From positions 1-55,705 of IMG/VR virus record IMGVR_UViG_3300042862_000096: DNA of 55,705 bases; one strand, written 5' to 3'. The position numbers were made by a program, and so were the translations under genes. The stretch is from a virus. Below, piece after piece: positions 8,976 through 40,266 of this stretch (the first letter of the stretch is position 1; each line of letters begins with the position of its first letter). Under the pieces are notes generated by a model. That model made no database searches and had not been told where the DNA came from. It worked only from the letters and a program-made list of their open reading frames with translations.

Positions 8976-10420
8976 TACAACCTCCTTCTATAACTAACGC
9001 TACCTGCGAGTGCTGCAGTAGTAGCAGACTGAACTGCTATACCACTTACAATAACTGCGGCAACGATTGTCTGTTCTGACTCAGAGCGTTCTTCGTCAGA
9101 CATATCTGCTCCGATACTGCTTATAGCCAATAGAGCCTGAGCAGGGTCAGAAAAAATAGTACTAAGTAATTCTACTGGACTCTCTAATATAACTAACGCT
9201 GCGGCAACTTCAGCAATTACGATTACTTCATTTCCATTTGAGTCTTGGCGTACTTCAACAGGCGTGGAAGGTGGAAGATCGGCTAAAGTAATTCCTGCTT
9301 CAGCAATAGCCTCAACTGTTACTGCTTCACCTTCAGCAGATTCAATTAAGGCTTCAGCGACTAATTCCCTCTCAGATTCAGTGAAAGTTCCATCTTCGCT
9401 TAATTGCTCTGAAAGGTTATTAACTTCAGTTTGGGTGATTTCTCCGTCTTGAGATAAGGCTTCTAGTATCTCTATAGAGTCTTGAGCCGTAACTACTCCG
9501 CCCATTTCTAGGTTCTCTACTAAAGTTTCTAGTTCTGCAACTGTTATCGGTTCTAGGTTTTCTTCTATTTGGGTGATAGGCTCTTCATTAACGATAGGAG
9601 TATCAAGTGGTTCTTCTGACTGACTTTCTGGCTCTATTTCTGGTATCAGTTGTTCTGGGTTTTCTGGTATGGAAGGTTCAACAACAGGAACAAGTACCTC
9701 AAGTTCTGAAACCAATTCTTCGGGCAACTGTTCTACTGGTGGTTGTATCGTGGTTATTGGCTCTGGGCTTGTATCTATCACAATAATCTGAGGAGGAATA
9801 TATGGAATTACTATCTCTGGTGTTATCACTGGTTGCTCTACTGGAACAACAGGTGGCACTACTACTGGCTCTACTGGTTCGGTAGGTTCAGGTGTCACTG
9901 GGTTTTGGTTTTCTGATGGGTCTTCTGGCTGGGGCTGTGGCTCTTGCGGTGTTGGCTCTACTTCTGGAAGATTGATTAAATTACTACTTAAAGTATAGGT
10001 TCCAATAGGTCTTTGATTGGCAACTATAAAGTCGTAAGAAGTTGCTCGTATAGTGTAAATGTCGGGAGTTAGAGTTCCGCTTAATCTAGAAGCATAATAA
10101 TTGGTTTGGGTATTGTGGTTGCTATCGTCATCTTGTGCAATTACTGTTCCACCCTCAACTGCCACACCACGATATAAACTAATCCATGAATCTACCCATG
10201 CTTCCCTTTCAACTGTTACTGAATTAACTACTTCAGTGCGTGGTCCAGTAGTCGTTTCAATTACATATTCAGTAGGAGTTACTACCTCAACTACTGTATC
10301 TACGAAGGCTATCTCGGGAGTTAAGGTAATAGTAATTTCATCAGCGAATGCTACAACTGGGGTCAGGGTCAGCCAGCCCACTATAAAGGCAACTGAATAG
10401 TATTTGTTGAATCTTAGCAA
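8975..10420 (-). CDS. Secreted, membrane-anchored surface-like protein
   Basis: 481 aa, TTG start behind GGGGTG. Residues 1-26 are a classical signal peptide with cleavage at AFA/DE. Residues about 30-150 form a beta domain resembling bacterial pre-peptidase C-terminal domains (SLYRGVAVEGG, IAQDDDSNHN, TPDIYTIRATSYD). Residues 150-300 are a Pro/Glu/Val-rich stalk, 300-440 acidic helices with EF-hand-like spacing (SQDGEITQTEVNNLSEQ; SEDGTFTESE), and the last about 30 residues are a hydrophobic helix ending in RRRL. This is the architecture of a cell-wall-spanning surface protein, very unusual within a capsid operon. It may modify the host surface or block superinfection; that is inference. Confidence 0.65.
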   Translation of the reverse strand: MLRFNKYYSVAFIVGWLTLTPVVAFADEITITLTPEIAFVDTVVEVVTPTEYVIETTTGPRTEVVNSVTVEREAWVDSWISLYRGVAVEGGTVIAQDDDSNHNTQTNYYASRLSGTLTPDIYTIRATSYDFIVANQRPIGTYTLSSNLINLPEVEPTPQEPQPQPEDPSENQNPVTPEPTEPVEPVVVPPVVPVEQPVITPEIVIPYIPPQIIVIDTSPEPITTIQPPVEQLPEELVSELEVLVPVVEPSIPENPEQLIPEIEPESQSEEPLDTPIVNEEPITQIEENLEPITVAELETLVENLEMGGVVTAQDSIEILEALSQDGEITQTEVNNLSEQLSEDGTFTESERELVAEALIESAEGEAVTVEAIAEAGITLADLPPSTPVEVRQDSNGNEVIVIAEVAAALVILESPVELLSTIFSDPAQALLAISSIGADMSDEERSESEQTIVAAVIVSGIAVQSATTAALAGSVSYRRRL

Positions 10421-12767: not shown

Positions 12768-12902
12768 CTATCTGCTCTTGTCTTCGGCTTCGGTCTCGAC
12801 TTGATTTGATTCTTGTATTTCTTCTATTGTTTTAGCGACCTGTATTTTACCCTGCCCACGGATAATCTTGCCATCTTCGGGTTGTGCTATGAATCGTGAC
12901 AT
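12768..12902 (-). CDS. Short conserved-context peptide
   Basis: 44 aa (45 if the ATG at 12905 is used), starting at the overlapping ATGATG with the MuF stop. N-terminal SRFIAQPEDGKIIRGQGKIQ is beta-rich; the C-terminal half is acidic and helical. Packed between two head genes, so probably expressed. No function recognised. Confidence 0.45.
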   Translation of the reverse strand: MSRFIAQPEDGKIIRGQGKIQVAKTIEEIQESNQVETEAEDKSR

Positions 12903-14833
12903 CATTTATCCATTCTCTGAAAAACTGCTACTGGTTTACCTTCTGTATCCGTAGTCGTGCTTATTCCTAAGAATAGTAGTGGAGTTTCACGAGGAAGTAA
13001 GACTTCTTTTTCTTTACCCCAAAACTCATCTCGCCCACTTCTCCCCCTGCTTGTTAAGAGTAAATCAACAGCAAGCCCTTTACCTGTTTTGCTTGGACTT
13101 GGAAGAATTACAGTTACAGTATCATCAGTAGGTGATAAGTTGCCTAATTGTTTTCTAGCAGACTTATTTGTTACAACATTTTTCCTTGTTGTACTTAAGA
13201 ATCCTTTGTCTATAAAAGTATCTCCGGGTTTCAAATCTGTGATAAGCCTATCGGAAGCAACTCTATAAAGAGTTTTATCACCGAAAGCATCTGGACTTTC
13301 TTCAATAGTTCTATCCAAAACACTTATCTTATTTTGCATGAAGTCATCGCTTTTTTGGCTACCTCTTGCCACAGCATTAATGCCCTGATAGCCAGCAGTT
13401 GCATAATCTTCAACTTGGAATTCTGAATTATCATTTTCCTCATTTTTTACAGAATATTTATTATCGTAAGCGACTGTTATTTTTTTCGTATCTTCTAAAC
13501 TTACATCATCTTTATCCCAAGAGCCATTCTGAAAAGAAGCCAAAGCACTGGCTGAAGCCTCGTATGACCCACTACCACTCCTTCTGCCTCCTGCGTGATT
13601 TTGCTGATTGTGTTGTCCAGGAGCATGCTTAGCAAATAACCAAGAGTTATCTGACTTCCTAAGTTTAGTTCCTAATCTAGCAAGTTTTCCATTACATGAA
13701 CGGCATAAGACTCTTAGGTTCTTCCTGTCATATTTAGCACCACCATCTTTTAATCTTTTCTTATGATCTACTGTTAGGTCTGATTTACTTCCACAACGCT
13801 GGCACTTGCCTATTCTATCTTTCATTTCATTGGCTATTTTGCGCCACTTGTAATCATAGTTTCGCCAAGTTTTTTCTCCGTCAGCAAATCTATAATATCT
13901 TTTCTCAACACTATTATCAAAGGTTGGCTCTGCTGGAACAATAACTGCGGTACATCTACAATTTGGGTGATTGGGTGGCATGACATCGCCAGTAGAAAAA
14001 ACACCTTCCCAATCTACTGTTACATTATTCAATGGTGCGCAAACTGGACATGTTCTTTCATCTGCTGCTGTTTTCCACCTCTTCTGGCTTCCTGCTGGAA
14101 GTAATCCTAATTGATCTGCTTCCGCCCAAGAAAGCATGCGACCAGCATTAGCAGCAGCAATAGTTTCTGTTCTGGCAATACGAGTAGCCCTCTGGATAAG
14201 TAATCTTTCACGATATTCTTTGCTAAGTTTAGTTACTATTTTTACTGCCTTCTCGTATGTTTCACCTTGCTCAATTAACTTAAGTAAGTTCTTTTCATAA
14301 AAGTTACCCAGTGCTTTTGCTTGTCTGGAATCTAAGCCAACTATTTGAGTAATATTATTTATTACTTCTTCTCTATTTATTTGTGTACTTAAACTTCTAG
14401 CAATAGTTTCAGCAACGGCTTTCTGAGTTTCTTGAGTAATTCCTAATATTCTTGCTCCTGCTCTCTGCTGTGCCCATGCTATTGCTCTTGGGTCTTGGGC
14501 AGTAAAAGAACTATCAAATCTAATATTCTTAGGCAAAGCAGCAGCACTTATATTTGCGGAAGCAGCAAGTTGTTGCGCTAACTTAGGAACTGTGCCATCT
14601 AGCGAAGAAACAAAGTCTCCCCACTCAAAAGCAACTGCACCAGCATTTGGACTTCTCGATTCTATTGCTCGCCTAACTGCTCTAATAACTTTTTCGTTAT
14701 CTAAATCTTTAGGCATAGAGGATAAAGCCTTAGAGTAAATATCAAAGATTTCTTGTTCGAACTTATTTAATTTTGCGGTTGGGCTACGAAGAACTGGGTC
14801 GTTTCTTTTTCTAGCCTTTATGACTAAAGGCAT
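12902..14833 (-). CDS. MuF head protein fused to HNH nuclease and ADP-ribosyltransferase domains
   Basis: 643 aa. Residues about 120-300 are a MuF/SPP1-gp7-type head morphogenesis domain (RIARTETIAAANAGRM, then CPVC and NHPNCRC). Residues 344-383 form an HNH unit: CQRC, TVDHKK, KNLRVLCRSC. Residues 402-418 are the KHAPGQHNQQNHAGGRR linker. Residues 515-640 form an ADP-ribosyltransferase fold with the R-S-E signature: R524 in LYRVAS, STT at 547-549 in GFLSTTRK, and E608-x-E610 in KEKEVLLPR. MuF proteins are packaged in heads in several phages, so the two C-terminal enzymes could be injected with DNA and act on host targets. The triad is complete, so activity is likely. Confidence 0.8.
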   Translation of the reverse strand: MPLVIKARKRNDPVLRSPTAKLNKFEQEIFDIYSKALSSMPKDLDNEKVIRAVRRAIESRSPNAGAVAFEWGDFVSSLDGTVPKLAQQLAASANISAAALPKNIRFDSSFTAQDPRAIAWAQQRAGARILGITQETQKAVAETIARSLSTQINREEVINNITQIVGLDSRQAKALGNFYEKNLLKLIEQGETYEKAVKIVTKLSKEYRERLLIQRATRIARTETIAAANAGRMLSWAEADQLGLLPAGSQKRWKTAADERTCPVCAPLNNVTVDWEGVFSTGDVMPPNHPNCRCTAVIVPAEPTFDNSVEKRYYRFADGEKTWRNYDYKWRKIANEMKDRIGKCQRCGSKSDLTVDHKKRLKDGGAKYDRKNLRVLCRSCNGKLARLGTKLRKSDNSWLFAKHAPGQHNQQNHAGGRRSGSGSYEASASALASFQNGSWDKDDVSLEDTKKITVAYDNKYSVKNEENDNSEFQVEDYATAGYQGINAVARGSQKSDDFMQNKISVLDRTIEESPDAFGDKTLYRVASDRLITDLKPGDTFIDKGFLSTTRKNVVTNKSARKQLGNLSPTDDTVTVILPSPSKTGKGLAVDLLLTSRGRSGRDEFWGKEKEVLLPRETPLLFLGISTTTDTEGKPVAVFQRMDK

Positions 14834-19156: not shown

Positions 19157-19288
19157 TTAATTCGACCACCATTTATGTGCCACAAAAATAATATAAAACC
19201 TCAGGAATTGAATAGTAAGACTTTTATCCCAACTATGGAATTGAATTGCTATCCCCCAGTTATCTGTCACACCCTTAAAAACTTTCAT
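19157..19288 (-). CDS. Small protein between carbamoyltransferase and oxygenase
   Basis: 43 aa from ATG 19288, overlapping the carbamoyltransferase stop by 14 nt; GAGAGAG lies upstream. Trp/Phe-rich: TDNWGIAIQFHSWDKS then FLRFYIIFVAHKWW. The C-terminal hydrophobic stretch could associate with membranes. Its stop is immediately before the next start (TAAATG). No family recognised. Confidence 0.45.
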   Translation of the reverse strand: MKVFKGVTDNWGIAIQFHSWDKSLTIQFLRFYIIFVAHKWWSN

Positions 19289-20924
19289 TTGTATCTCTCT
19301 CTACTATAGTTTTCGTATCAACAAAATATACCGCATCTAGGGTACTTTCGCTCAAGGTTTGTATTGCCTCGTCTTTAGTTTGAACTAAAGGCTCTCCAGC
19401 AAGATTGAAACTTGTATTAAGTAACATAGGACACCCTGTTTTTTCATAAAAGCCTTGAAGTAGGTCGAATAGAAAGCCTTCTTTGACTGTTTGTATTCTG
19501 CTTGTATTATCTACATGAATAATTCCGGGCACGAGGCTTATTGCCGACTCTTTTGCATCAAAGTTTACTGTCATATATTCTGATGAAGAAAGACCTAAAG
19601 TAACGAAATACTTATCGAATTCTGACTCTAATATAACTCCAGCAAAAGGTCTATACCATTCCCTTTTTTTAATTTTATTGACGATTGCCTTACAGTCCTT
19701 ATTTCTTGGGTCGAAAAGAATTGACCTATGACCTAACGCCCTTGGACCAGCCTCAGGACTGCCATCGAAAATGGCTAAACTCTTTTGATTGATTAACAAG
19801 TCTACTAAGTGTTCCATATTTGGCACTCTTTCACCAAAAGTTCTAAGGTCTAGGTCATAAAAATGAAAAAAGTTATCCTTTAATTTTTTAGGTCGCTTGC
19901 CTGTTTCCATAACATATTTCATCATAGCGGCACCAATAGGCACACCTGTATCATCGGCTACTGGTTCGAAATAGAAAGTAACATCTTTCATGTTTTTAAG
20001 ATAGAAGTTATTAGCGACTACATTTAATCCATAACCACCAACGAGGCAAACATTACGGACTTTGGTTTTCTCTACATGATATTTAATCAACTCTAAAACT
20101 GCTTCTTGGGTATCGATTTGAACTTGCTTAGCCAAGTTTGCGTACTCTAAGTAGTTTTGATTATCTATATCAGAAGTTATTTTATCTTCTTTTTCAAAGA
20201 AGCAAACAGGGTAAGAATCAGTAAATAATTCAGCCCTTGCAACGGACTTATGAAAGAGTTTATAGTTATCGTTGTAAGTTCCATAAGAGGAAAGCCCCAT
20301 AGTTTTTCCATTTTCTAAAGGGTTTTGCCCGATCATAGTTGTAGCCGACTCATAGACTTTAACAATGCTCAAAAAATTATTGAGAGTAACTTTTGTGTCA
20401 AGATAAAGAACTTCTAAAGACTTTAGAACTTTTAGCCGTTTAGAAGACATATCAGGCATAAGCCAAAAGTTTTTCTGTAAAGGTTTTAGAAAGTTATTTT
20501 TATCGCATAAATATACAGACTCTGACTCTCTAGCAACTTCTTTATCCTCAGCAAAAATTATAGAGCCATTTCGGTCAATAACAAAAACTAAGCAACTTTC
20601 AAACCCGCTATTAAAGTAGGCAAGGTTGGCATGTGATTGATGATGAGTTAGTGCCGAGAAATTCTCTAAAGGCACATTAAAAGTTTTTTCTATATAACGG
20701 CTATAAACAGTTTCAATACCGAGTTCATTGTTATCTGGTACTGTATAGAGCGCATGGTCTAAAGGTCCTGCTAAATTTGCTTTCAATAATTCTAAAGATT
20801 TGAAGGGGTGCTTGTCTCTCTTTTTTCTAGAGATTCGTTCTTCCTTACAAAAAAACTCAATTTCGCCATCATTTAATACACATACAGAACTATCATGGGC
20901 TATATTAAATGCTAGTATTCTCAT
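19275..20924 (-). CDS. NodU/CmcH-family carbamoyltransferase
   Basis: 549 aa, full length for the family. The N-terminal Kae1/TsaD-like domain has [15 protein letters not shown] and the metal-site [12 protein letters not shown]. The middle has [12 protein letters not shown] and [13 protein letters not shown]. The YrdC-like C-terminal domain has [30 protein letters not shown] and [14 protein letters not shown]. These enzymes transfer carbamoyl from carbamoyl phosphate, with ATP, to hydroxyl groups. In phages, relatives have been linked to carbamoylated hydroxymethyl bases in DNA. Together with the TET-like oxygenase at 24607 and the glycosyltransferase at 23807, DNA base decoration is the favoured role; modification of a small metabolite is the alternative. 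Confidence 0.85.
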
Positions 20925-22764: not shown

Positions 22765-23206
22765 CTCCCCCTTCATTAAGCATTTCTAATACTACTTTCC
22801 TAGCCTCTTCAACGCTAATTGTTATTGGCGCTCCGTCAGGTCCAGAAAGTTCTGCTTTAATCTTAGTGTGTTGTGCCCAGCGTTCAGGGTGTTTTCTTTC
22901 TAGCCACCATGCTGCTGCTTGCCATCTTCCATTTTGTGCTGCTTGAACAATTCTGCCAACATTCATTGTTTCTGCTTCTGCTTCGCTACGCTCAAACGAC
23001 TCTCGAAATTCTTGTAATTCCTCACTAGCATTCTTGGCTCTTGACTGTTCTAACCAGCGATAAAGAGTTGCTTCAGATATACCAGCAAAGGAGCAGGCAA
23101 CTTTCTTGTCGTTTCCTGCTCTTATTGCTTTGATTAACTTATCCCTTCGAGCATCATCTAGTTTGGTCTTTCTTCCTCGCTTTGTAACAGAATCGTTATC
23201 AGTCAT
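22715..23206 (-). CDS. terS: Terminase small subunit
   Basis: 163 aa from ATG 23206, which overlaps the methyltransferase stop (TAATG). A helix-turn-helix is visible in ACSFAGISEATLYRWLEQSR, followed by a helical oligomerisation region and RKHPERWAQHTKI, a recurrent terS feature. The acidic C-terminal end overlaps terL. It recognises the packaging site and loads TerL. Confidence 0.82.
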   Translation of the reverse strand: MTDNDSVTKRGRKTKLDDARRDKLIKAIRAGNDKKVACSFAGISEATLYRWLEQSRAKNASEELQEFRESFERSEAEAETMNVGRIVQAAQNGRWQAAAWWLERKHPERWAQHTKIKAELSGPDGAPITISVEEARKVVLEMLNEGGDDGLIIDGESPEVIQE

Positions 23207-23823
23207 TATCTTGCCCATACCGCAATAGTCTGCCAGCCTTTGGGCGTAATCTTAGGTGGCTTTATTGCTGTCCACTTCTCGAATCCTTGAATCAGTTTGG
23301 GTGCCTCTATCTCTCTTAAGGCTTTCCTGTTTAAGTGAATTTCCATTGTTACATATTGTACCGAATCAGGAAGTGTTTCGGGTATGTTGAATTCGTATTC
23401 TGCGCCCTCGCAGTCAATCTTTACTACATTGGGTTGAACTCTAGCCACTACCTCAGCAAATGAATCGCTCGGAACTATTATATGGTTTCTAGTTGGGCCA
23501 TCATAAAGAATACTATGTCCGCCCGTATGTCCAGAAGTTTTAACATTAAGCATTACATCTCTGCCATCACGGGTTAATGCTTTGTTATGGATTTCAACTG
23601 GTTTGCCTTCTGTGTTGAGAGTAAGCATACGGAAATTGTCTGGTTCTGGTTCATAGGCAACTACGAAACCAGCACCTTGTAGTAATGCCCAATTAGTAAA
23701 AGAACCTATGTGTCCACCAACATCTAACACTTTACAACCAGCAGGTATTGGGCAGGTTTTATACGCATTTATTTCGCCCAATGTCATAGCATCGGTTGTT
23801 CCTTCTCTAGTTTGCAAGTCCAT
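23206..23823 (-). CDS. FkbM-type SAM-dependent methyltransferase
   Basis: 205 aa. Rossmann motif I is VLDVGGHIGSFTNWAL, motif II is VVAYEPEPDNFRML, and the FkbM hallmark is VVKIDCEGAEYEF followed by YVTMEIH. FkbM enzymes O-methylate sugars and natural products. Its start overlaps the glycosyltransferase by 17 nt, so it may methylate the sugar placed on DNA by that enzyme. This is inferred from context; SAM-methyltransferases have been described in TET/glycosyltransferase neighbourhoods. Confidence 0.75.
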   Translation of the reverse strand: MDLQTREGTTDAMTLGEINAYKTCPIPAGCKVLDVGGHIGSFTNWALLQGAGFVVAYEPEPDNFRMLTLNTEGKPVEIHNKALTRDGRDVMLNVKTSGHTGGHSILYDGPTRNHIIVPSDSFAEVVARVQPNVVKIDCEGAEYEFNIPETLPDSVQYVTMEIHLNRKALREIEAPKLIQGFEKWTAIKPPKITPKGWQTIAVWAR

Positions 23824-24610
23824 GTAATGGTCTCTCTTTTCTTCCTAAAGTAATCGGCTTCAAGCGAAGATTCACTACTCCTCCTGCTTTAATCTGTATT
23901 GAAGATAGGTCTGGATATCTTTCTTGTACCCAACGCAATTCTGAAGCATGTCTATCTTTTCTCACATCTCCATCTTCTGTTACGCAAGCATCTATACCGC
24001 CTGAAGCAAAATACTTGGTCTTTGGGCATAAGAATTCTAGGCGAACAACGCAACCATATCTAGTAAATCCTCTAAGAGTTGAATGGTGGTCTTCTCCTGT
24101 TGGGGTCATGCGTCTTTCAGGATCGCAGAATATCCAGTCTTTAGCATAAGTTCCCATGAAGTTAGCACATATATATCGAAGTCCTACTGAAATATGGTCT
24201 TTTAAGAAGAAGTGGTTCATGGTTGGGTTAATACCCCACTGTCTTGCTCCCTGTTCTTCTGCTGTTGAGAAACCTATCTCTGCTATCTCGTCGAGTTGGT
24301 ACCGTGTTGGTACTAGTTTCTTATCTCCAAGTTCTAGTAAATCAGACATATCATCATCAATGCTTAATAGTCTTTCATTTTCAGGAAACCAGTTGTGGTA
24401 AAACTTTCTTTGGGTAGATATACCACGCACGCCAACAACAATGCGGTAATCGTCTTTTAATACAGACCGATAGAGTTCTTCTTGCTCTTCATTAGCGACA
24501 AAGACATGAACCTTATCTTTATCTACTTTCAGGCGTTCTAAAGTTGCTAGAGTTTGATCTCGGCAAATCTCTGCTCGCTGGTAAGAAGGAACTACTACTT
24601 GATACTTCAA
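23807..24610 (-). CDS. Glycosyltransferase of the TET-associated / GT2-like type
   Basis: 267 aa, TTG start overlapping the oxygenase stop by 4 nt. It begins VVVPSYQRAEICRDQTLATL, has the sugar-nucleotide DxD motif LLSIDDDMSDLLEL, and later GEDHHSTLRG and ASGGIDACVTEDGDVRKDRH. The pattern matches the glycosyltransferases that accompany TET/JBP oxygenases in phages (TAGT/GREB1-type), which glycosylate hydroxylated bases. Cytosolic, no membrane segments. Most likely donor is a UDP-sugar; acceptor probably a hydroxymethyl base made by the neighbouring enzyme. Confidence 0.72.
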   Translation of the reverse strand: MKYQVVVPSYQRAEICRDQTLATLERLKVDKDKVHVFVANEEQEELYRSVLKDDYRIVVGVRGISTQRKFYHNWFPENERLLSIDDDMSDLLELGDKKLVPTRYQLDEIAEIGFSTAEEQGARQWGINPTMNHFFLKDHISVGLRYICANFMGTYAKDWIFCDPERRMTPTGEDHHSTLRGFTRYGCVVRLEFLCPKTKYFASGGIDACVTEDGDVRKDRHASELRWVQERYPDLSSIQIKAGGVVNLRLKPITLGRKERPLHGLAN

Positions 24611-25473
24611 CCAACCTTAAACGGAGTATCACCTTTGAGAGCAGAAGCCAGTCCTGTTTCTCGTTCTGTTCTCCGTTTCCTCGCTTCTTTCTGTTCAACT
24701 GCGAATGAGAAGCAGTCTTTCATGCCTCTTAAGCAGTAATAAACAACTGTGTAGCGGTAAGAATCTTTCTGAACATGTGCTATCGGAGTAACTCCGTGAA
24801 GGTATCTGTATCCTGGAAAGAATAAACACCAACCATCTCGGCACTCAATAACTAAATCGTATTCGGGCATACTTAGGTAACCACCACGAGTACCTCTTCT
24901 AATTACTGGCATAGCAGACCACATATCAAAGTTGTTGCCGTCAAAGTGGTATGGAAGGGTTGAGGTTTTATTAATAACTCCGCTAGTCCAAAGACTTCGC
25001 TCGCTTAATCTCCACTCATCTGCTACTGCTGCTGTTTCGGTTACATCTGCATTGTATACATCAGGAATTAACTCTTTAATAATATCTGCTAATACATCTG
25101 CTGTTCTAGTTAGAACATCATGCTCTTCGGGTTGGTCATAAGATAATGCTGTTGGTCGGCATGCTTCTCTAGTTTGAAATGGTTTGCGTGGCGCCATACC
25201 GAAAGTTCTTGAATGATTTTCTACACCAGTTGATTGTCTAGTTACACCTGATGAAGAATACTTAATTGAACGAACTGCTTTTCTAAGTTCTGGAATTACT
25301 GCTTCTGGTAGAGGCATGTAAACTAAGAAAGGTTCATTGGTGTCTGCATCAACATAGATTCCAGCCTCTTTGATATTTGCTTCTAACTCTGGAACATCTA
25401 CACCTTTAAGTTCCTTAGTTTTACTTCTATCAAAAACTCTTTTGACTGGTATTACATCTAAATCTTTAATCAC
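24607..25473 (-). CDS. TET/JBP-family 2OG-Fe(II) DNA base oxygenase
   Basis: 288 aa from GTG 25473, chosen because it overlaps the ParB stop and follows GAGG with 6-nt spacing; an ATG 54 nt earlier has no ribosome-binding site. With this start the catalytic H176-x-D178 is in LPYHFDGNN, followed by GGYLSMPEYDL, the distal H226 in RYLHGVTP and 2OG-binding R240 in SYRYTVVYY. The order and the GG-LxxPxY strand are those of TET/JBP dioxygenases, which hydroxylate methyl groups of 5-methylcytosine or thymine in DNA. Situated between ParB and glycosyltransferase, the standard hypermodification arrangement. Confidence 0.75.
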   Translation of the reverse strand: MIKDLDVIPVKRVFDRSKTKELKGVDVPELEANIKEAGIYVDADTNEPFLVYMPLPEAVIPELRKAVRSIKYSSSGVTRQSTGVENHSRTFGMAPRKPFQTREACRPTALSYDQPEEHDVLTRTADVLADIIKELIPDVYNADVTETAAVADEWRLSERSLWTSGVINKTSTLPYHFDGNNFDMWSAMPVIRRGTRGGYLSMPEYDLVIECRDGWCLFFPGYRYLHGVTPIAHVQKDSYRYTVVYYCLRGMKDCFSFAVEQKEARKRRTERETGLASALKGDTPFKVG

Positions 25474-26137
25474 TTGGTGCCTCTGTTCCAGTCGCTTCCG
25501 CAACTGCTCTAATAATGGCGTCCCCATTACTATCTACATTATACTTTACTCTAAGTTCAGTTAGCCTGTCTTGAATCCAAATATATTGGTCGTTAGGAAA
25601 CTCACACATTAACAGCCTGACTGTTCTTTCGGCATAGTGAGATGCTCTTTCAGACATAGTCGGTCTTCTATTAACTCCTTCTTGTGCTAATTGACCGCCT
25701 CCACTAACACCCTCAACCATACTTCCAGTCTCTTCGTAAGAAGGAGTTATTGACTGTTCTTCAATTAACGCAAGTAAATCATCTATATCTTGGGTGTCGT
25801 AGCCAGTTCCCTCTAGACTAATATCTTGTAATAAATCTAATAATTCTTTCTCATCATAAGTTCCAAGTTCGCCTAATCTATTATCGCTGGCTACTATCTT
25901 CTTCGCTTGGGTGTTATTAACATCTACCTCAACAGTATCAACTCTTGTCCAACCTAATTCTTTTGCTGCTTGCCATAGATGGTTACCGGCAAGTATGTAT
26001 CTAGTTGATGCCTGAATAACAATCGGCTTGTATTGTCCGTTAGCATTTAAAGATTCTTTAAGTTTATTAACATTACCTCTTCTTGGGTTATTTGGAAAAG
26101 GTAAAAGCGTTTCTATATCAGAACTAATAATCTCCAC
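25466..26137 (-). CDS. ParB-like nuclease-domain protein
   Basis: 223 aa, GTG start behind AAGGAG. The ParB/Sulfiredoxin fold is evident: LLPFPNNPRRGNVNKLKESL, GQYKPIVIQ, YILAGNHLWQAAKELGW, then VEVDVNNTQAKKIVASDNRL. The C-terminal half is helical. ParB domains are frequently found with TET/JBP oxygenases and base-modifying enzymes and may provide DNA recognition or a CTPase clamp. A large hairpin lies just upstream in its leader (26157-26207). Confidence 0.8.
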   Translation of the reverse strand: MEIISSDIETLLPFPNNPRRGNVNKLKESLNANGQYKPIVIQASTRYILAGNHLWQAAKELGWTRVDTVEVDVNNTQAKKIVASDNRLGELGTYDEKELLDLLQDISLEGTGYDTQDIDDLLALIEEQSITPSYEETGSMVEGVSGGGQLAQEGVNRRPTMSERASHYAERTVRLLMCEFPNDQYIWIQDRLTELRVKYNVDSNGDAIIRAVAEATGTEAPSD

Positions 26138-33573: not shown

Positions 33574-34239
33574 TTATTTGTTTGGTATGACTGGACTGCG
33601 TAAATCTTCACGCCACTTTTCAATGGTTGAATATTTCCACAGTGGGGTGCGACCGTATTGCTTATCAGGTTTAGGCATTTGTTTCCTAGACTTGTAAGCA
33701 GAAATAGTCTTAGGTGATACACCTAATAAGTCGGCAACCTGTTTGCTTGTTAGGTAAACGACTCCTGTTTTCAACATACTTGTATCTGCTCCTATTCTTA
33801 TAGTTCCCATAAGAAAGAATCCTTCTTCACTATTTGGCCAGACATAAGGAATATTGTCTGGAACTTCATATTTATAGAAGTCGGGTGCTTTTCTCATAAG
33901 ATTTGATTGGTGAGTTAAGTGAACTAATGAATCTTTCACCCACCATGGTTTTGGTTTATGAGATTCTTGATTTTGGTTCATAAATAACCAAAACTTTTGC
34001 TCAAGGGAATCCTTGAAGCCTCGGCTAATCCACTCACCGCAAATCTCATAACCATAGTTTGCTAGTTGCCATTCATGCCCTTGCCACATCTTTGTAGCAG
34101 GGTGATTTGTCCAGCCATTTGATTTACCAGTTAAAGAGTTAAGGATTTGATATGCCTCAACTCTTTGCTTGCCCAGTCGCTTATTATCAAGCGACTGAGC
34201 AACAACAGCATATTTAGAAGCCGTCATAAAGGTTTGCAC
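33574..34239 (-). CDS. Pyrimidine-dimer-glycosylase-like domain fused to MerR/Xis-type HTH
   Basis: 221 aa, GTG start right after the upstream stop, behind GGAG. Residues 1-125 match the MSMEG_6728/T4-EndoV-like family: MQTFMTASKYAVVAQSLDNK then RLGKQRVEAYQILNSL, NHPATKMWQGHEWQLANYG and WWVKDSLVHLTHQSNLM. Residues 155-215 form a MerR/excisionase helix-turn-helix (LTSKQVADLLGVSPKTIS). The N-terminal family starts at this very MQTF, which supports GTG. A repair glycosylase guided by a DNA-binding domain, or an exotic regulator, are both possible. Confidence 0.68.
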   Translation of the reverse strand: MQTFMTASKYAVVAQSLDNKRLGKQRVEAYQILNSLTGKSNGWTNHPATKMWQGHEWQLANYGYEICGEWISRGFKDSLEQKFWLFMNQNQESHKPKPWWVKDSLVHLTHQSNLMRKAPDFYKYEVPDNIPYVWPNSEEGFFLMGTIRIGADTSMLKTGVVYLTSKQVADLLGVSPKTISAYKSRKQMPKPDKQYGRTPLWKYSTIEKWREDLRSPVIPNK

Positions 34240-34923: not shown

Positions 34924-35913
34924 CTACGCAGTTAGCAAAGATTGCGCTTTATCTTTGAACTTTTCAGTACCGCCTAGAATTATTCTTTCGGCACGAAGTT
35001 CATCTTTGCCTTCTTTACTTCTTACTGGCTTAGCCCAATCTGACCACTCTACAACAGCGTTGTAAGCAGCCCACTTTGTGCCAGCAATATTGCTTTGCGT
35101 TGGTGCTTTCCACAAAGCAAATAGTTCATTTCGCTTTTGCTCAAATGAGTTCTCAGCCCTCTTGGTTAATTCACCCTTTGGCTCAGGCACTAGAACTTCA
35201 ATGAACTTCTTGTATTGCGTATCTGTGAACTTCTCAGATAGCAACTGCTCAACCTCTTGCTGAAAAGCCTCTTGGTATTTGAACACTATACCTAGAGTCT
35301 CTCTTGCGTGTTGAACTTTGGCAGTAGCACCAGAAGTATGCTTCAGAGATATCTTAGACTTTGCAGAAGCAAGTGCTAAGCGAACTGTGTTTGTGCATAC
35401 TGCTCTGATAGGTGTTACGGCAACAGTGAAGGAAGATGAACCATCGTGGCTATTAACAGCCATAATATAGTTATCTACTACATCTGCCCCATTGGCTAAC
35501 TTCATAGAGTCAGGGAACTTCATAGTCATGAAAACACGACCACCCTTCTTCAATGAACCAGCAGTTTCGAATCTAGCACCCGACTCATCAGCAATAAGGT
35601 TTAAGAAATCAAACGCCTCACTGTTTTGAATTGGTGTATATCGATTACCAACTACACCCAACGCAGCCATTCCTGACTTTGGGTGATTACGATAAGTAAG
35701 AAACTTATCTTGTAGTGTGATTGTTTTACCATCAACAACTGTGCTGATAGGTTCTTCACTTACTTTTACTGGCCACTCTAACTGCGCAGTTTTAAGTGCG
35801 TCTTGTGCAGTTAAGGCATTCGGTGTAATTTCACCGAGTTTATGCCAAGCGACTTCTCGATTAGAGAAGAACGCACTAGTGCCATCAGCAAATTGCTCTA
35901 TTTCATGAGCCAT
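34924..35913 (-). CDS. DUF932 / TIGR03299-type phage-plasmid protein
   Basis: 329 aa, ATG behind GAAAGGGTAA. N-terminal FFSNREVAWHKLGEITPNAL and SGMAALGVVGNRYTPIQNSE, with VNSHDGSSSFTVAVTPIRAV then CTNTVRLAL, match the DUF932 family found in phages and conjugative plasmids. Function unknown, often near replication and anti-restriction genes. It is the first gene downstream of hammerhead ribozyme 1. Confidence 0.8.
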   Translation of the reverse strand: MAHEIEQFADGTSAFFSNREVAWHKLGEITPNALTAQDALKTAQLEWPVKVSEEPISTVVDGKTITLQDKFLTYRNHPKSGMAALGVVGNRYTPIQNSEAFDFLNLIADESGARFETAGSLKKGGRVFMTMKFPDSMKLANGADVVDNYIMAVNSHDGSSSFTVAVTPIRAVCTNTVRLALASAKSKISLKHTSGATAKVQHARETLGIVFKYQEAFQQEVEQLLSEKFTDTQYKKFIEVLVPEPKGELTKRAENSFEQKRNELFALWKAPTQSNIAGTKWAAYNAVVEWSDWAKPVRSKEGKDELRAERIILGGTEKFKDKAQSLLTA

Positions 35914-35941
35914 TTACTTTACCCTTTCTTCTTTTCTGACG

Positions 35942-35996
35942 AGGCTCGTCAGTAGTGGCAATTACCACTAGACCCTACTTTCGTAGGGTTTCGCCT
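35942..35996 (-). ncRNA. Type II hammerhead ribozyme 1
   Basis: Minus-strand RNA from 35996 to 35942. Helix II AGGC/GCCU; GAA core; helix III ACCCUAC-GAAA-GUAGGGU; C17 at 35971 (cleavage expected between 35971 and 35970); helix I UAGUGG-UAAUUG-CCACUA; CUGACGA core. Every conserved hammerhead position is present and the open end is helix II, hence type II. Its first base is the last base of the upstream stop codon. The leader of the DUF932 gene begins just after. Confidence 0.92.
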
Positions 35997-36190
35997 TAAT
36001 TAACTTCAACCCATTCCATGGCAACACGAAGTAAATTATCGTAGTCGCCAGACATTGAAGCATTGCTGTATTCATCTATCTGTTCTTTTGTTGCTCCTGC
36101 TCTTCTGAGAGCAGACCTAACTGATCCCATTATCGCGAAAGCATTTCCGTCATTTCCTGTAAGTTGAACTGTTGTATTGAACTTAGGCAT
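35996..36190 (-). CDS. Small early protein
   Basis: 64 aa, ATG behind AAAGGGTAAAT. NGNAFAIMGSVRSALRRAGA then TKEQIDEYSNASMSGDYDNL has an acidic helix-rich fold reminiscent of small phage DUF families. Flanked by hammerhead ribozymes on both sides. Confidence 0.55.
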   Translation of the reverse strand: MPKFNTTVQLTGNDGNAFAIMGSVRSALRRAGATKEQIDEYSNASMSGDYDNLLRVAMEWVEVN

Positions 36191-36212
36191 ATTTACCCTT
36201 TCTTTGTTCTGA

Positions 36213-36277
36213 AGAACTCATCAGCGTAGTCATTTAACTACGGACGCCCAACCGAAACCGACTGGGCGTTTCGTTCT
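36213..36277 (-). ncRNA. Type II hammerhead ribozyme 2
   Basis: Minus strand 36277 to 36213. Helix II AGAAC/GUUCU; GAA; helix III ACGCCCAGUC / GGUUGGGCGU with a 6-nt loop (10 bp with two G-U pairs); C17 at 36243 (cleavage 36243/36242); helix I CGUAGU-UAAAUG-ACUACG; core CUGAUGA. The element overlaps two bases of the upstream TAG stop. Leads the 64-aa gene at 36190. Confidence 0.9.
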
Positions 36278-36545
36278 ATCTTTTTTGTTTGAGATGCTCT
36301 TCAACCATTTCTTTCATTTGTATTTTAGTGGCTGAGTTATTAAGTTCCTTAGCCATTTCTATACATAGTTTGTATGAATCAGAAACGAAAACAGGTCTAG
36401 TTGGAACACCTGCGTTCATAAACTTCTGAAACATTTTCCAGTCAATAACAAAAGACTGACCTGAACTTATCCAGTCTTTTCTTACACAAGCATCGCCGTA
36501 GTATCCACCGGACTGGCATGCGATAAATGAGTTTGTATTAGACAT
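36276..36545 (-). CDS. Early protein of unknown function
   Basis: 89 aa, ATG behind AAAGGTAA. MSNTNSFIACQSGGYYGDAC with a second Cys/Trp cluster, then FVSDSYKLCIEMAKELN and a basic helix. Overlaps the upstream gene by 8 nt. No family recognised. Confidence 0.5.
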   Translation of the reverse strand: MSNTNSFIACQSGGYYGDACVRKDWISSGQSFVIDWKMFQKFMNAGVPTRPVFVSDSYKLCIEMAKELNNSATKIQMKEMVEEHLKQKR

Positions 36546-36858
36546 GTTGATTTACCTTTCCGTGGGCGTTCCACCAAGTCTTGGCGAAGTCCAATGTTCT
36601 TTCATTGAACTGGTAGCACCACTTCTGCGTATGTGTATGATGGCAACTTCTATCTTGGTTACCTGAGTAGATAATTACTTTGCCACCATATTTATTTATT
36701 TCCATCATTATGTTTTCAGCAGGGATACCCCAGTCAAGTAGGTTGCCTACCCACTCTCTTACTCTGTCTTGTCTACAAGGTAAGCAAGGGCACTTGTGTT
36801 CTGTTTGGTGAGTTGCAACTTTAACTGTCATAAGTTCTGCTGCTGAACCTCTTTTCAT
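36538..36858 (-). CDS. Early zinc-binding protein
   Basis: 106 aa, start overlapping the previous stop (TAATG), GAGG upstream. HKCPCLPCRQDR and a CHHTHTQKWC pattern make a likely zinc site. The middle has WVGNLLDWGIPAENIMMEIN, a helical DNA-binding-like segment. Unknown role. Confidence 0.5.
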   Translation of the reverse strand: MKRGSAAELMTVKVATHQTEHKCPCLPCRQDRVREWVGNLLDWGIPAENIMMEINKYGGKVIIYSGNQDRSCHHTHTQKWCYQFNERTLDFAKTWWNAHGKVNQHV

Positions 36859-37064
36859 TATTTCCTCACCTTCAGTATTGCGTAAGAGCCACCCTTATTT
36901 AACTCTTCAAGAATTGGCTCTAGTTTTGGAACTAGTAAATCACGGACCATTTGACTTAGCAGTGAGTGCCTTAATTCAATTGGCAGTGCTAGTATCCTTT
37001 GACATGTTATATGTTTGTCGTCTAGTATCATTTCTAGTTTGATGCTGTGCTCTATTGTTGTCAT
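36858..37064 (-). CDS. Small early protein
   Basis: 68 aa, ATG behind AAAGGGTAAATA. Helical: IELRHSLLSQMVRDLLVPKL, ends in YAILKVRK. Its stop overlaps the next start. Unknown function. Confidence 0.5.
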   Translation of the reverse strand: MTTIEHSIKLEMILDDKHITCQRILALPIELRHSLLSQMVRDLLVPKLEPILEELNKGGSYAILKVRK

Positions 37065-37080
37065 TTATTTACCCTTTCAG

Positions 37081-37215
37081 TTAGTCACTCATTGATTCGT
37101 CATACATGCGGTCAGGATCTTCCTCACCGCATTTACATTCTTGTTCATCGCAATCAGCACAAGAATATAAACTTAGTGCTGCTGGGTCACCATGAAGCCA
37201 TTGTGGTTCAGACAT
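37081..37215 (-). CDS. Micro-protein with Cys cluster
   Basis: 44 aa from ATG 37215 (GAGGTG upstream), overlapping the upstream stop by 8 nt. CADCDEQECKCGEED in the middle, a possible zinc site, and an acidic tail. Unknown function. Confidence 0.45.
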   Translation of the reverse strand: MSEPQWLHGDPAALSLYSCADCDEQECKCGEEDPDRMYDESMSD

Positions 37216-37381
37216 TAGGCTTCACCTCGTCACTTACATATCCTTCTGCTAATAGTCCATCTAGTAAATCGTGAACCATTAACAAGCCCTTTTGAACTTC
37301 TGAGCCATCTTTGAAATAACGGAGAGAAGTGTTTATTGCTCCCCCCATTTTTTGTATATCTTCATACTTATATCCAAGCAT
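37208..37381 (-). CDS. Small helical protein
   Basis: 57 aa from ATG 37381 (GGAGAAAG upstream). YEDIQKMGGAINTSLRYFKD and LLMVHDLLDGLLAEGYVSDE are two helices. Overlaps the downstream micro-gene. Unknown function. Confidence 0.45.
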   Translation of the reverse strand: MLGYKYEDIQKMGGAINTSLRYFKDGSEVQKGLLMVHDLLDGLLAEGYVSDEVKPNV

Positions 37382-37404
37382 TATCTTTCTCCCGTCTATT
37401 GAAG

Positions 37405-37854
37405 TTATTCATCTTCAATCGTAATGTTGGACCATTCACAGTCTTCATTAGTTAGTTCACCTACACCATTGTAAGAAAGATCGATACTGATATCGTCCTC
37501 GCTTACCTCTTCGTCTAAGGCACATTCAACAGTTAAGTTGTATTCAACTGTTATTTGAACTGTTACCTCTTTAGTTAAGGTGATGTCCAGTTCAGCAGCC
37601 AGTTCTTTTAGTTCATCTACTGTTGCTGAATCATCATCTTTGACATGTTCAAGTATGAACGCTTTAACATAACCTAACTGTTGGTTAAGTTTTGCATTTC
37701 TTTCTTTTGAAGATTCAAGTTGCCTCTCTAGGGAATCAACTGAATTACTGTACTTAACTAACTCTGCCACTATTTCATCAGTGGCGTGATCTCTAACGAA
37801 CTCATCAGCAATTGCTTCTACTGTTGGCTCGTCTATTTGTGTTTCTGTTGTCAT
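37405..37854 (-). CDS. Acidic early protein
   Basis: 149 aa, very rich in Asp/Glu, ATG behind AAGGGTAAAT. A central coiled coil (VDSLERQLESSKERNAKLNQ) and an acidic beta-rich C-terminal half ending EDCEWSNITIEDE. The extreme acidity recalls DNA-mimic anti-restriction or nucleoid-protein inhibitors, but this is inference. Downstream of hammerhead ribozyme 3. Confidence 0.5.
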   Translation of the reverse strand: MTTETQIDEPTVEAIADEFVRDHATDEIVAELVKYSNSVDSLERQLESSKERNAKLNQQLGYVKAFILEHVKDDDSATVDELKELAAELDITLTKEVTVQITVEYNLTVECALDEEVSEDDISIDLSYNGVGELTNEDCEWSNITIEDE

Positions 37855-37880
37855 GATTTACCCTTCATGTTTCTAACGAT

Positions 37881-37935
37881 TGGCTCGTCAGTATCGGCAT
37901 TTACCGATAGACCCTGCCGAAGCAGGGTTTCGCCA
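37881..37935 (-). ncRNA. Type II hammerhead ribozyme 3
   Basis: Minus strand 37935 to 37881. Helix II UGGC/GCCA; GAA; helix III ACCCUGC-UUCG-GCAGGGU; C17 at 37910 (cleavage 37910/37909); helix I UAUCGG-UAAAUG-CCGAUA; CUGACGA. Begins immediately after the upstream TAA stop. Loop III is a UUCG tetraloop. Leads the acidic-protein gene. Confidence 0.92.
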
Positions 37936-38361
37936 TTAGTAATCAGATATGTTTGAGTACTCTTTCGCAGCAACTAAAGCCATGTAGTAAGTTCCTTGAA
38001 GTAGGTCACTATCAACATTGTTTTTAACTTTAGTAATTCGCTTGAACCAAACGCTGTATTTCTCATCACTTACATTGGTGGTTATACCAATACGACGAGC
38101 AATATCTAGCGGAGAATAATAAACAGGAACTAGGGTCTGTTCATTAGTTATAGAACTCTTGACTGACTTGTTGATATATGCTCCGTCAAGTTTTTCAAGC
38201 ACTTTAATTCGGGCATAAGTATCAGCCCAGTTGGTAACTTTGATTTCACCAATGCCTACTGCCATCATTAGCCAAATCATTTGCTCAGTCATAGCCTTGT
38301 GTTCATCAGACCATAAACTTTCATGCTCTTTGCACTTAGTTATATCCCATGATAGTGCCAT
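37936..38361 (-). CDS. Early protein of unknown function
   Basis: 141 aa, ATG behind AAGGGTAAATA. Helical N-terminal half with SLWSDEHKAMTEQMIWLMMA and YARIKVLEKLDGAYINKSVK; no known domain. It sits between ribozymes 3 and 4. Confidence 0.5.
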   Translation of the reverse strand: MALSWDITKCKEHESLWSDEHKAMTEQMIWLMMAVGIGEIKVTNWADTYARIKVLEKLDGAYINKSVKSSITNEQTLVPVYYSPLDIARRIGITTNVSDEKYSVWFKRITKVKNNVDSDLLQGTYYMALVAAKEYSNISDY

Positions 38362-38381
38362 TTATTTACCCTTCTTAATCT

Positions 38382-38434
38382 GAACTCGTCAGCGTTGGCG
38401 TTTACCAACGGACTGCCCGAAGGCAGTTTCGTTC
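38382..38434 (-). ncRNA. Type II hammerhead ribozyme 4
   Basis: Minus strand 38434 to 38382. Helix II GAAC/GUUC; GAA; helix III ACUGCC-UUCG-GGCAGU; C17 at 38411 (cleavage 38411/38410); helix I CGUUGG-UAAACG-CCAACG; CUGACGA. An outer helix UUAAUC (38438-38443) / GAUUAA (38375-38380) continues helix II past a small internal loop. Leads the 141-aa gene. Confidence 0.92.
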
Positions 38435-38439
38435 TTTGA

Positions 38440-38769
38440 TTAATTGCTTATTTCTTCATATTCGAGAATATCCCAACCACTCATTGCACAACCATAAGCA
38501 CGACCATCTAGCACTACTTCGTCACCAACGCTTATAGCAGTATGACTTCTGTTTTCAGGCATTTTTCCGTCAAGGAATAACTTCCATATTGCACCTTGAT
38601 ATAAATTGGTGCACTCGAACAGATATTCCAACCAGACCATGTCGTCACCATCAAGTTCGTAATGGTCAGTTGGAACTTCGAAGGTCATTTCAGCATTACC
38701 TATCTTGCCATTTGCAGCAAGAGCAACTGCTTGGTGTTTGAAAGCAGTCCATTTGATTGTTATTAACAT
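38440..38769 (-). CDS. Early protein of unknown function
   Basis: 109 aa, ATG behind AAAGGGTAAATA. Beta-rich: ITIKWTAFKHQAVALAANGK, EMTFEVPTDHYELDGDDMVW, VGDEVVLDGRAYGCAMSGWD. A compact beta fold is likely. Preceded by the second operator-like repeat. Confidence 0.5.
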   Translation of the reverse strand: MLITIKWTAFKHQAVALAANGKIGNAEMTFEVPTDHYELDGDDMVWLEYLFECTNLYQGAIWKLFLDGKMPENRSHTAISVGDEVVLDGRAYGCAMSGWDILEYEEISN

Positions 38770-38799
38770 ATTTACCCTTTCATTAGTTAGTGAATCAGC

Positions 38800-38810
38800 G
38801 ACAGCCGAAT
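38800..38810 (-). repeat. Operator-like repeat ATTCGGCTGTC, copy 2
   Basis: 11-bp repeat within a near-perfect hairpin (38790-38813), GUGAUUCGGC-UGUC-GCUGAUUCAC with one U-U mismatch. Lies between the stop of 38821-39000 and the next ribosome site. Confidence 0.6.
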
Positions 38811-38820
38811 CACGATTTAG

Positions 38821-39000
38821 TTAGTTAAGCGAACCATTTTCCATAATGAAATCGCTTGCTCTTTTCTTTGCTTCTTCTCTCGTAACATATTTATAGACTT
38901 TAGAACCCAGTGATAAATCACCAATACTGGCTCTGACCATAACTGAGTAATCAGTCTTTATGATTACCCATTCAATGTCTTTCAGGTTTAACTTACCCAT
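38821..39000 (-). CDS. Small early protein
   Basis: 59 aa from ATG 39000, overlapping the previous stop by 8 nt. KDIEWVIIKTDYSVMVRASI is a short beta fold, followed by a lysine-rich helix (VTREEAKKRASDFIMEN). Unknown function. Confidence 0.5.
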   Translation of the reverse strand: MGKLNLKDIEWVIIKTDYSVMVRASIGDLSLGSKVYKYVTREEAKKRASDFIMENGSLN

Positions 39001-39199
39001 TACGCTTAACCCCTATTTCATATTCTTCAATATCAGAAGCCCAGTTGCCACCGATACCACTTATTTCATTAGCGATATCTTTAGCAGTTTCTATATCGCC
39101 TTCTCGGATTGCTTTCTTTAGTTGAGGTAGTATCGCTTTGATATACCTCATGTCTGTATTGACTGACTTAACAGTCAAGTCACCTATTTTTTTAGCCAT
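38993..39199 (-). CDS. Small helical early protein
   Basis: 68 aa, ATG behind AAAGGGTAAACC. Two helices (YIKAILPQLKKAIREGD and TAKDIANEISGI) joined to a basic start. No family recognised. Confidence 0.5.
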   Translation of the reverse strand: MAKKIGDLTVKSVNTDMRYIKAILPQLKKAIREGDIETAKDIANEISGIGGNWASDIEEYEIGVKRNG

Positions 39200-39221
39200 T
39201 TGGTTTACCCTTTCAGTTGGT

Positions 39222-39440
39222 TTATGAACGACCTGAAGACCTTCCGTTCTTCAAGTCGGGACTATCTTTATGAACTATTGTGAAACCTTGCTTCGGCACT
39301 AGCATTAGCCGATAATTTTCTCTGCCTGTAACTCCATTGGTTGATAAGCAATCTCGTTTCATGCAGTAGTAGTAACCCAGTTCCCATCTTCTTGGATCAA
39401 CTGGGTCGTTGCAATAAATGCAATAATTCTCGCTAGACAT
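39222..39440 (-). CDS. Zinc-ribbon early protein
   Basis: 72 aa, ATG 39440 behind AAGGAATC. CIYC and CMKRDC form a possible zinc knuckle, followed by an Arg/Lys-rich C-terminus. Likely nucleic-acid binding. Confidence 0.5.
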   Translation of the reverse strand: MSSENYCIYCNDPVDPRRWELGYYYCMKRDCLSTNGVTGRENYRLMLVPKQGFTIVHKDSPDLKNGRSSGRS

Positions 39441-39446
39441 GATTCC

Positions 39447-39560
39447 TTAGTTACTTTCCATTAGAACTTCTAGTGACTGCTCTTTGTAGCATTTTTTACA
39501 AACAAGAGTGGAGTCAAAGAAAGTAACTGGAACTTTACAGCACTTAGATAATCCGTTCAT
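39447..39560 (-). CDS. Zinc-ribbon micro-protein
   Basis: 37 aa, ATG 39560 behind AAAGGGTAAAC. CC and CKKC (LVCKKCYKEQSLEVLM) are the metal-binding candidates. First gene downstream of the whole early leader and of hammerhead ribozyme 5. Confidence 0.5.
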   Translation of the reverse strand: MNGLSKCCKVPVTFFDSTLVCKKCYKEQSLEVLMESN

Positions 39561-39583
39561 TGTTTACCCTTTCGTTTTCAGAC

Positions 39584-39643
39584 AGACTCATCAGTTACGG
39601 CGTATACCGTAAGACACGCAACAGGGTGCTGCGTGTTTCGTCT
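39584..39643 (-). ncRNA. Type II hammerhead ribozyme 5
   Basis: Minus strand 39643 to 39584. Helix II AGAC/GUCU; GAA; helix III ACACGCA / UGCGUGU with a 9-nt loop; C17 at 39613 (cleavage 39613/39612); helix I UUACGG-UAUACG-CCGUAA; core CUGAUGA. Unlike the others it is not preceded by a recognised gene but by the long early leader, so it would trim the 5' end of the first early mRNA. Confidence 0.9.
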
Positions 39644-40266
39644 TATATAATTAATTGCACAACTTTCTACCGCAAGATAGTTAGTTGATATGTTTGATTT
39701 ACTTTTGAAAGTCATTCGTCGTAGGTCTAATCTTTTTACCGTTGCGACCGGAACTACTTTTATCACTCGCTCTTTTGCTAATGGAACTAGCAATGTCATC
39801 GCGAAAGTAATTTCCTCACCTAGAACTGGCTATATCGTCGTATTATTTTGATTGACCGAGTAGTAGTCTGTAAATTGAATCAGTCTTGTTAGTTTCGATT
39901 TTACGAGCACCTGAATTACTGGAACGATTCAGGACGCCGAGACCCTTTACAGGTTTTCCTCTGACTATCCCTTCACTATTTAATTATCAGGTAATAACCT
40001 TTTCTGTCACCTTAAGAAGTTCCCTAGGGATTTAATGACTTCTTAAGTTCACCAGAGTTTTATCCCTGACCGTAGTTTTTTCACTTTTGAGTTTTGCCCC
40101 TAAGGGATTCTGAAAACCCAGCCGTGCCTACCCCTTAATCCTACTACATCTTGACCCTGTATAAAAGACGGCGAGGGGAGCCGACCTGCTTTGGGTATAT
40201 GGCAAGCCCTACAAGGAAGCCTCTAGGAAGCCTTTTGCGACCCTTTATTACAGGTCAGGTAGTTAT
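39644..40266 (-). promoter_or_regulatory. Structured early leader / control region
   Basis: 623 nt with no convincing gene on either strand. It contains: a 7-bp hairpin CCTGAAT...ATTCAGG at 39910-39933; a 10-bp inverted repeat CTTAAGAAGT / ACTTCTTAAG (40011-40047) enclosing the palindrome TCCCTAGGGA; a 9-bp tandem repeat AGGAAGCCT (40214-40235). These may be operators, a second origin or the leader of the early transcript. No -35/-10 pair was convincing. Confidence 0.5.

Follow-up and report, generated by a model that had tools for sequence, protein, structure and literature searches.

According to our analysis, the 55,705-base virus record IMGVR_UViG_3300042862_000096 of IMG/VR, which is the whole stretch of DNA considered here (the window), carries on its minus strand five elements that, judged from their sequence, are genuine type II hammerhead ribozymes, for which self-cleavage is predicted. 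In many related elements, and in part of those in the window, a tail that lies immediately 3' of helix II can base-pair with the catalytic core. This anti-core tail looks like the new part of the system, the clustering of such ribozymes being already known. We consider it moderately probable that the hammerheads divide a long transcript of the phage into mRNAs for one gene or a small operon and that, once the cut is made, the core strand is captured by the tail.

An exact-core scan of both strands, which required GAA, the A15.1-U16.1 pair, H17, CUGANGA and three helices, returned five minus-strand elements that coincide to the base with those reported in a first-pass annotation of this DNA and that hold, as reported there, every core position, C17 included. 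In all five, helix I has 7 base pairs (bp), helix II 4-5 bp and helix III 7-12 bp, and helices I and III are closed while helix II is open, which is the type II layout. The elements and their separate tails are given below in the order of the minus strand, with E values from the covariance model R1 described further on. The second number of each predicted cleavage site is the 5'-OH position that the annotation had named, correctly as read off the sequence.

39584-39643, minus strand: HH5, first of the array; helix II AGAC/GUCU; predicted cleavage 39613/39612; R1 E value 2.4e-10; without an anti-core tail
38382-38434, minus strand: HH4; helix II GAAC/GUUC; predicted cleavage 38411/38410; R1 E value 2.6e-14; 4-bp anti-core pairing of CUGA with a UCAG that spans the 3' strand of helix II and the tail
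37881-37935, minus strand: HH3; helix II UGGC/GCCA; predicted cleavage 37910/37909; R1 E value 3.6e-11; its start abuts the stop codon of 37936-38361
37873-37879, minus strand: anti-core tail of HH3 with the sequence UCGUUAG, which can pair over 7 bp (one of them G-U) with the entire core CUGACGA
36213-36277, minus strand: HH2; helix II AGAAC/GUUCU; predicted cleavage 36243/36242; R1 E value 3.1e-10; helix II overlaps the TAG stop codon of 36276-36545; 4-bp anti-core pairing (UCAG)
35942-35996, minus strand: HH1; helix II AGGC/GCCU; predicted cleavage 35971/35970; R1 E value 5.9e-10; its first base is the final base of the TAA stop codon of 35996-36190
35936-35941, minus strand: anti-core tail of HH1 with the sequence CGUCAG, which can pair with CUGACG of the core (7-bp run including the flanking U of helix II)

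The hammerhead is the minimum-free-energy fold in RNAfold for 5/5 elements (z-scores -2.1 to -4.6), and 20 Markov-shuffled windows, scanned on one strand each, contained no exact-core match. A sixth match in the window itself, on the plus strand at 9703-9799 (T17, CTGAGGA), was rejected since it looks like chance. The Rfam scan of the window gave no match at the gathering score; the type II family RF02276 reports only 37878-37935 (HH3), at 34.6 bits (E value 2e-4) against a gathering cut-off of 37 bits, so that by this measure the window elements lie outside the family. Because Rfam misses the window copies, we trained a covariance model, R1, on 45 elements of equal length that come from other viruses and genomes, none of them from the window locus. 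It recovers 5/5 window copies at 62.8 to 46.2 bits (E values 2.6e-14 to 5.9e-10) and nothing beyond them below E=2, the next match having E=2. The covariance search that the annotation had proposed as a check thus fails for every copy at Rfam's gathering score and succeeds with R1. Among the 45 elements 99.9% of the cells pair, a figure partly built in because the elements were picked with a stem filter, and 13/16 pairs changed on both sides, which bears out in outside elements the helix covariation first noticed among the five copies; the type II permutation is likewise upheld by the scan, the folds and the R1 matches. A first pattern scan, whose sole requirements were the core and closure of the loop by GG..CC, found a fully paired element in 49/49 loci. 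Over 13 loci with multiple hammerheads, Rfam has a single hit. The Rfam type II model overlooks most such elements, and counts of phage ribozymes are therefore underestimates. That none of the window copies reaches the gathering score is also what could be said for their being look-alikes without catalytic activity, such as stem-loops for mRNA stability. We regard this as very improbable, because five copies with differing helices, and hundreds of relatives, retain every core position, and because 14/18 consensus hammerheads tested in 2011 were active (PMC3088659).

Four scans of viral contigs (IMG/VR) and one of GTDB genomes yielded 601 strict type II elements, of which 325 are non-redundant after removal of redundancy at 85% similarity, a threshold that leaves residual relatedness. 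The search patterns required a loop I with UA or UAA and, in most scans, also a pyrimidine at position 7 (Y7), so that frequencies refer to that subset; no pattern included tail sequence. At least two elements were found on 99 locus-strands, with a median interval of 454 nucleotides (nt), and both strands were occupied in only 5 loci. Hammerhead arrays are widespread in phages, the largest having nine elements in 10.6 kb (L050), eight (L226) and seven (L086 and L235). Nearly all of the nine elements of L050 have the helix II GGUC/GACC and most of these copies are without an anti-core tail; several start codons in this array lie about 10 nt or less from helix II, so close that a separate Shine-Dalgarno sequence would hardly fit. 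We also observed type II pairs about 360 nt apart in Gastranaerophilales-type genomes (L264, L265, L267, L278, L279, L287, L296, L300, L301 and L336), where they apparently bracket one small gene.

The sequence that straddles the 3' strand of helix II and the tail is often complementary to core positions C3-N7; the tails lie just outside the coordinates of the first-pass annotation, which missed them. The motif N-U-Y-A-G occurs within 17 nt of the core in 111/257 non-redundant Y7 elements, compared with 8, 14 and 14 in three control stretches, and the base opposite N7 follows it (U-A 42, C-G 44, U-G 5, C-A 8; Fisher 2.8e-14). Counted once per locus and state, the pairs number 32 U-A and 34 C-G, and where the opposing base lies at least 3 bases past A9 there are 35 U-A, 26 C-G, 1 U-G, 2 C-A and 1 U-U. 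Core-tail runs of at least 5 bp are present in 45% of elements, versus 12% with shuffled tails. The tail adjusts to the sequence of helix II: it starts with AG in 48/66 elements whose helix II ends in UC and in 32/195 of the others (p 1e-16). Since phage families could share tails by descent, tails were swapped only within the same locus; over 55 independent loci, 81 elements have runs of at least 5 bp, whereas the swaps gave a mean of 70.2 and a maximum of 77, and 0/500 reached the observed pairing. The seven copies of L086 have U7 always opposite AUCAG and C7 always opposite GUCAG, and at the DUF932 boundary, where HH1 stands in the window, CUGACGA/CGUCAG has become CUGAUGA/CAUCAG in the related virus L033, a compensatory change. 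If the anti-core subgroup is defined by N-U-Y-A-G with a Watson-Crick pair at N7, HH1 and HH3 belong to it, HH2 and HH4 show only CUGA-UCAG and HH5 falls outside. Because core-tail pairing excludes the active fold, it represents a second state of the same RNA. A loop I-tail pseudoknot was rejected as the meaning of the tail, as pairing of at least 4 between the two (31%, versus 23% shuffled and 26% swapped) exceeds the controls marginally.

The arrays have in common the layout stop codon, ribozyme, ribosome-binding site. In a sample of 127 non-redundant elements whose helix II has 4-5 bp, a gene-like stop lies nearby in 118 and starts at most 16 nt upstream of helix II in 103, in 34 of the sample exactly two bases upstream (TA followed by R, a one-base overlap); the base just 5' of helix II (-1) is A in 96%, and the downstream start codon follows at a median of 24 nt. 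In the window, the stop codon of the gene preceding each of HH1-HH4 touches or overlaps helix II or lies at most 5 nt from it, and upstream of HH5 there is a stretch without a convincing gene. The minus-strand order is HH5, five open reading frames (ORFs), HH4, the 141-amino-acid gene, HH3, six ORFs, HH2, the 64-amino-acid gene, HH1 and the DUF932 gene. The claim that five hammerheads stand in front of consecutive early genes therefore needs adjusting: five are present, spread along about 13 ORFs rather than before each gene, in a region that is presumably early. No terminator-like site was found on the transcribed strand from HH5 to HH1, which agrees with one transcript. The genes next to the ribozymes are as follows.

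37936-38361, minus strand: ORF of 141 amino acids, function not assigned; single gene between HH4 and HH3
37405-37854, minus strand: ORF of 149 amino acids with a weak Arc-like match; directly downstream of HH3
35996-36190, minus strand: ORF of 64 amino acids, phrog_1933; single gene between HH2 and HH1
34924-35913, minus strand: DUF932 gene (PF06067, phrog_1221); directly downstream of HH1

In L033, L003 and L006 the DUF932 gene, too, has a hammerhead in front of it, as has the 149-amino-acid gene in L033, L010, L019 and L044, while the other genes between these two are replaced among relatives. Since both positions are kept in diverged relatives, the elements belong to gene boundaries, and free mobile elements were rejected as an explanation.

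In the mechanism that we favour, cuts between genes would turn the long transcript into single-gene or small-operon mRNAs. Each upstream mRNA would terminate just past the stop codon, its helix III hairpin bearing a 2',3'-cyclic phosphate. Each downstream mRNA would start within the helix I hairpin, at a 5'-OH, and the ribosome-binding site would come next. After the cut, the sequence just 3' of helix II would pair with core positions C3-N7 (in HH1 and HH3, more weakly in HH2 and HH4), which would block re-ligation and release the upstream product; the new mRNA would then start with the helix I hairpin abutting the anti-core hairpin, giving a structured 5'-OH end. The simplest order would be folding, cutting and capture, since the ribozyme is transcribed before the tail. 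In the predicted post-cleavage leader the core pairs downstream with P>0.5 in 63% of elements, versus 33% with shuffled tails, and the probability is 0.99 for HH1, 0.99 for HH3, 0.93 for HH4, 0.83 for HH2 and 0.22 for HH5.

Several observations weigh against this mechanism. The anti-core sequence is missing from over half of the elements and from HH5, and any such motif was found in only 2/44 elements with A7 or G7 (L354-L398), so that our prediction of UUCAG or CUCAG in this group failed; a pure hairpin requirement would have allowed these motifs opposite a purine at position 7. The gap might arise because G-U intermediates let Y7 change, a route closed to a purine. The same absences, together with the proposal of clusters and segmentation as early as 2011 (PMC3088659), are what an account of ordinary clustered phage hammerheads, cutting mRNA and carrying a tail complementarity of no role of its own, can draw on. 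We consider that account unlikely in view of the enrichment over controls, the N7 covariation, the swap test within phages and the compensatory change that separates HH1 from L033 at a shared gene boundary.

The folding energies before cleavage also weigh against capture as the sole task of the tail. Where the core-tail run is 6-7 bp long, the anti-core fold surpasses the active secondary fold in stability by a median of 2.5-4.1 kcal/mol (HH1 5.6, HH3 4.1), in a comparison that ignores tertiary contacts. Being already favoured before the cut, it could also serve as a brake, in which case the anti-core hairpin would compete with the active fold ahead of cleavage and only part of the transcripts would be cut. 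Such a brake may be coupled to translation, a terminating ribosome covering the 5' strand of helix II and favouring the anti-core fold. The energies agree with it for 95-100% of the elements whose runs span 6-7 bp and for HH1, HH3, HH2 and marginally HH4 of the window, and stop codons do sit tight against helix II. We nevertheless give a mainly braking tail a rather low probability: the whole ribozyme would emerge from the polymerase ahead of the tail, so that fast cleavage would win; no aptamer-like conserved tail sequence was seen beyond the complementarity; and the nearly invariant A at -1 also accounts for the preferred one-base stop overlap, for which reason this overlap was rejected as proof of translation coupling. 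Somewhat more doubtful still, and offered tentatively, is a two-state switch in a large phage hammerhead group that would be coupled to upstream translation termination and would set the cut fraction gene by gene. In viroid and hepatitis delta virus (HDV) ribozymes, flanking sequence sequesters ribozyme strands in alternative inactive folds; the likeness lies in the mode of working, the elements being unrelated and the flanking design different.

The elements share with RF02276 type II hammerheads the open helix II, the core, the cleavage site, the bacterial or phage setting and the clustering between genes. They differ in helix II, which RF02276 models with 2 bp and which here mostly has 4 bp; in a short, UAA-rich loop I, a richness that comes partly from our search pattern; and in the tail, which pairs with loop I in most known type II elements, as reported, but here with the core. 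The A at -1 and the UAA-rich loop I may form a tertiary contact in place of the known pseudoknot. The pseudoknot hammerhead (PMC11300833) has the same core and chemistry, but its extra pairing stabilises the active fold, which anti-core pairing excludes.

Perreault et al. (PMC3088659) found type II hammerheads to be common in bacteria and described prophage clusters, type II included, that flank single genes or gene blocks. Their proposed role was to divide long phage transcripts into mRNAs the length of an operon or a gene. Tandem sets cleave in vitro and a triple set cleaves in Escherichia coli. As clustering, activity and the mRNA-processing idea were thus on record, the suggestion of the first-pass annotation that such clustering is undescribed does not hold. 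A 2017 review (PMC6155905) also notes different hammerheads close together flanking small ORFs, often phage linked, and calls their role in phages an open question. The window array, in which multiple hammerheads flank genes and share a strand of the phage genome, belongs among these clustered phage hammerheads. Like the prophage clusters of Agrobacterium, Azorhizobium and Clostridium scindens (PMC3088659), for which segmentation was proposed, it has ribozymes flanking the genes of what is read as one transcript; the arrays here are larger, with 5 elements in the window and up to 9 in L050, are homogeneously type II and lie directly between stop codon and ribosome-binding site. The anti-core tail is not mentioned in the main text of PMC3088659, nor did we find mention of a core-complementary tail in the freely accessible texts that were searched.

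The window has a G+C content of 40% and encodes phage proteins (terminase, portal, head, tail, RecT and PD-(D/E)XK), and its relatives suggest a freshwater-type phage. Its array region had no DNA match among GenBank phages, and the GenBank search gave no close phage relative for this region or for the L086, L226, L235, L217 and L050 arrays. Just upstream of HH5, about 600 nt (39650-40250) are without convincing genes and include a promoter-like site at 40010-39983 on the minus strand; this stretch could hold the array promoter or another RNA. The idea that a phage RtcB ligase produces circular mRNAs was rejected, as RtcB is not present in the window record, although the host may have one. Near a ParB-like gene lie a Tet/JBP oxygenase (24607-25527), a TET-associated glycosyltransferase (23807-24610), a carbamoyltransferase (19275-20924) and an FkbM-type methyltransferase (23206-23823), which together look like a DNA base hypermodification set. 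The Mu F-like head morphogenesis protein at 12902-14833 also carries an HNH nuclease domain, and the protein at 33574-34239 joins an N-terminal pyrimidine-dimer glycosylase domain to a C-terminal helix-turn-helix.

With hundreds of copies in one layout, 5'-end sequencing can test mRNA segmentation in these phages directly. The core-complementary tail provides a specific second structure that can be tested genetically and that could explain one-way or limited cleavage.

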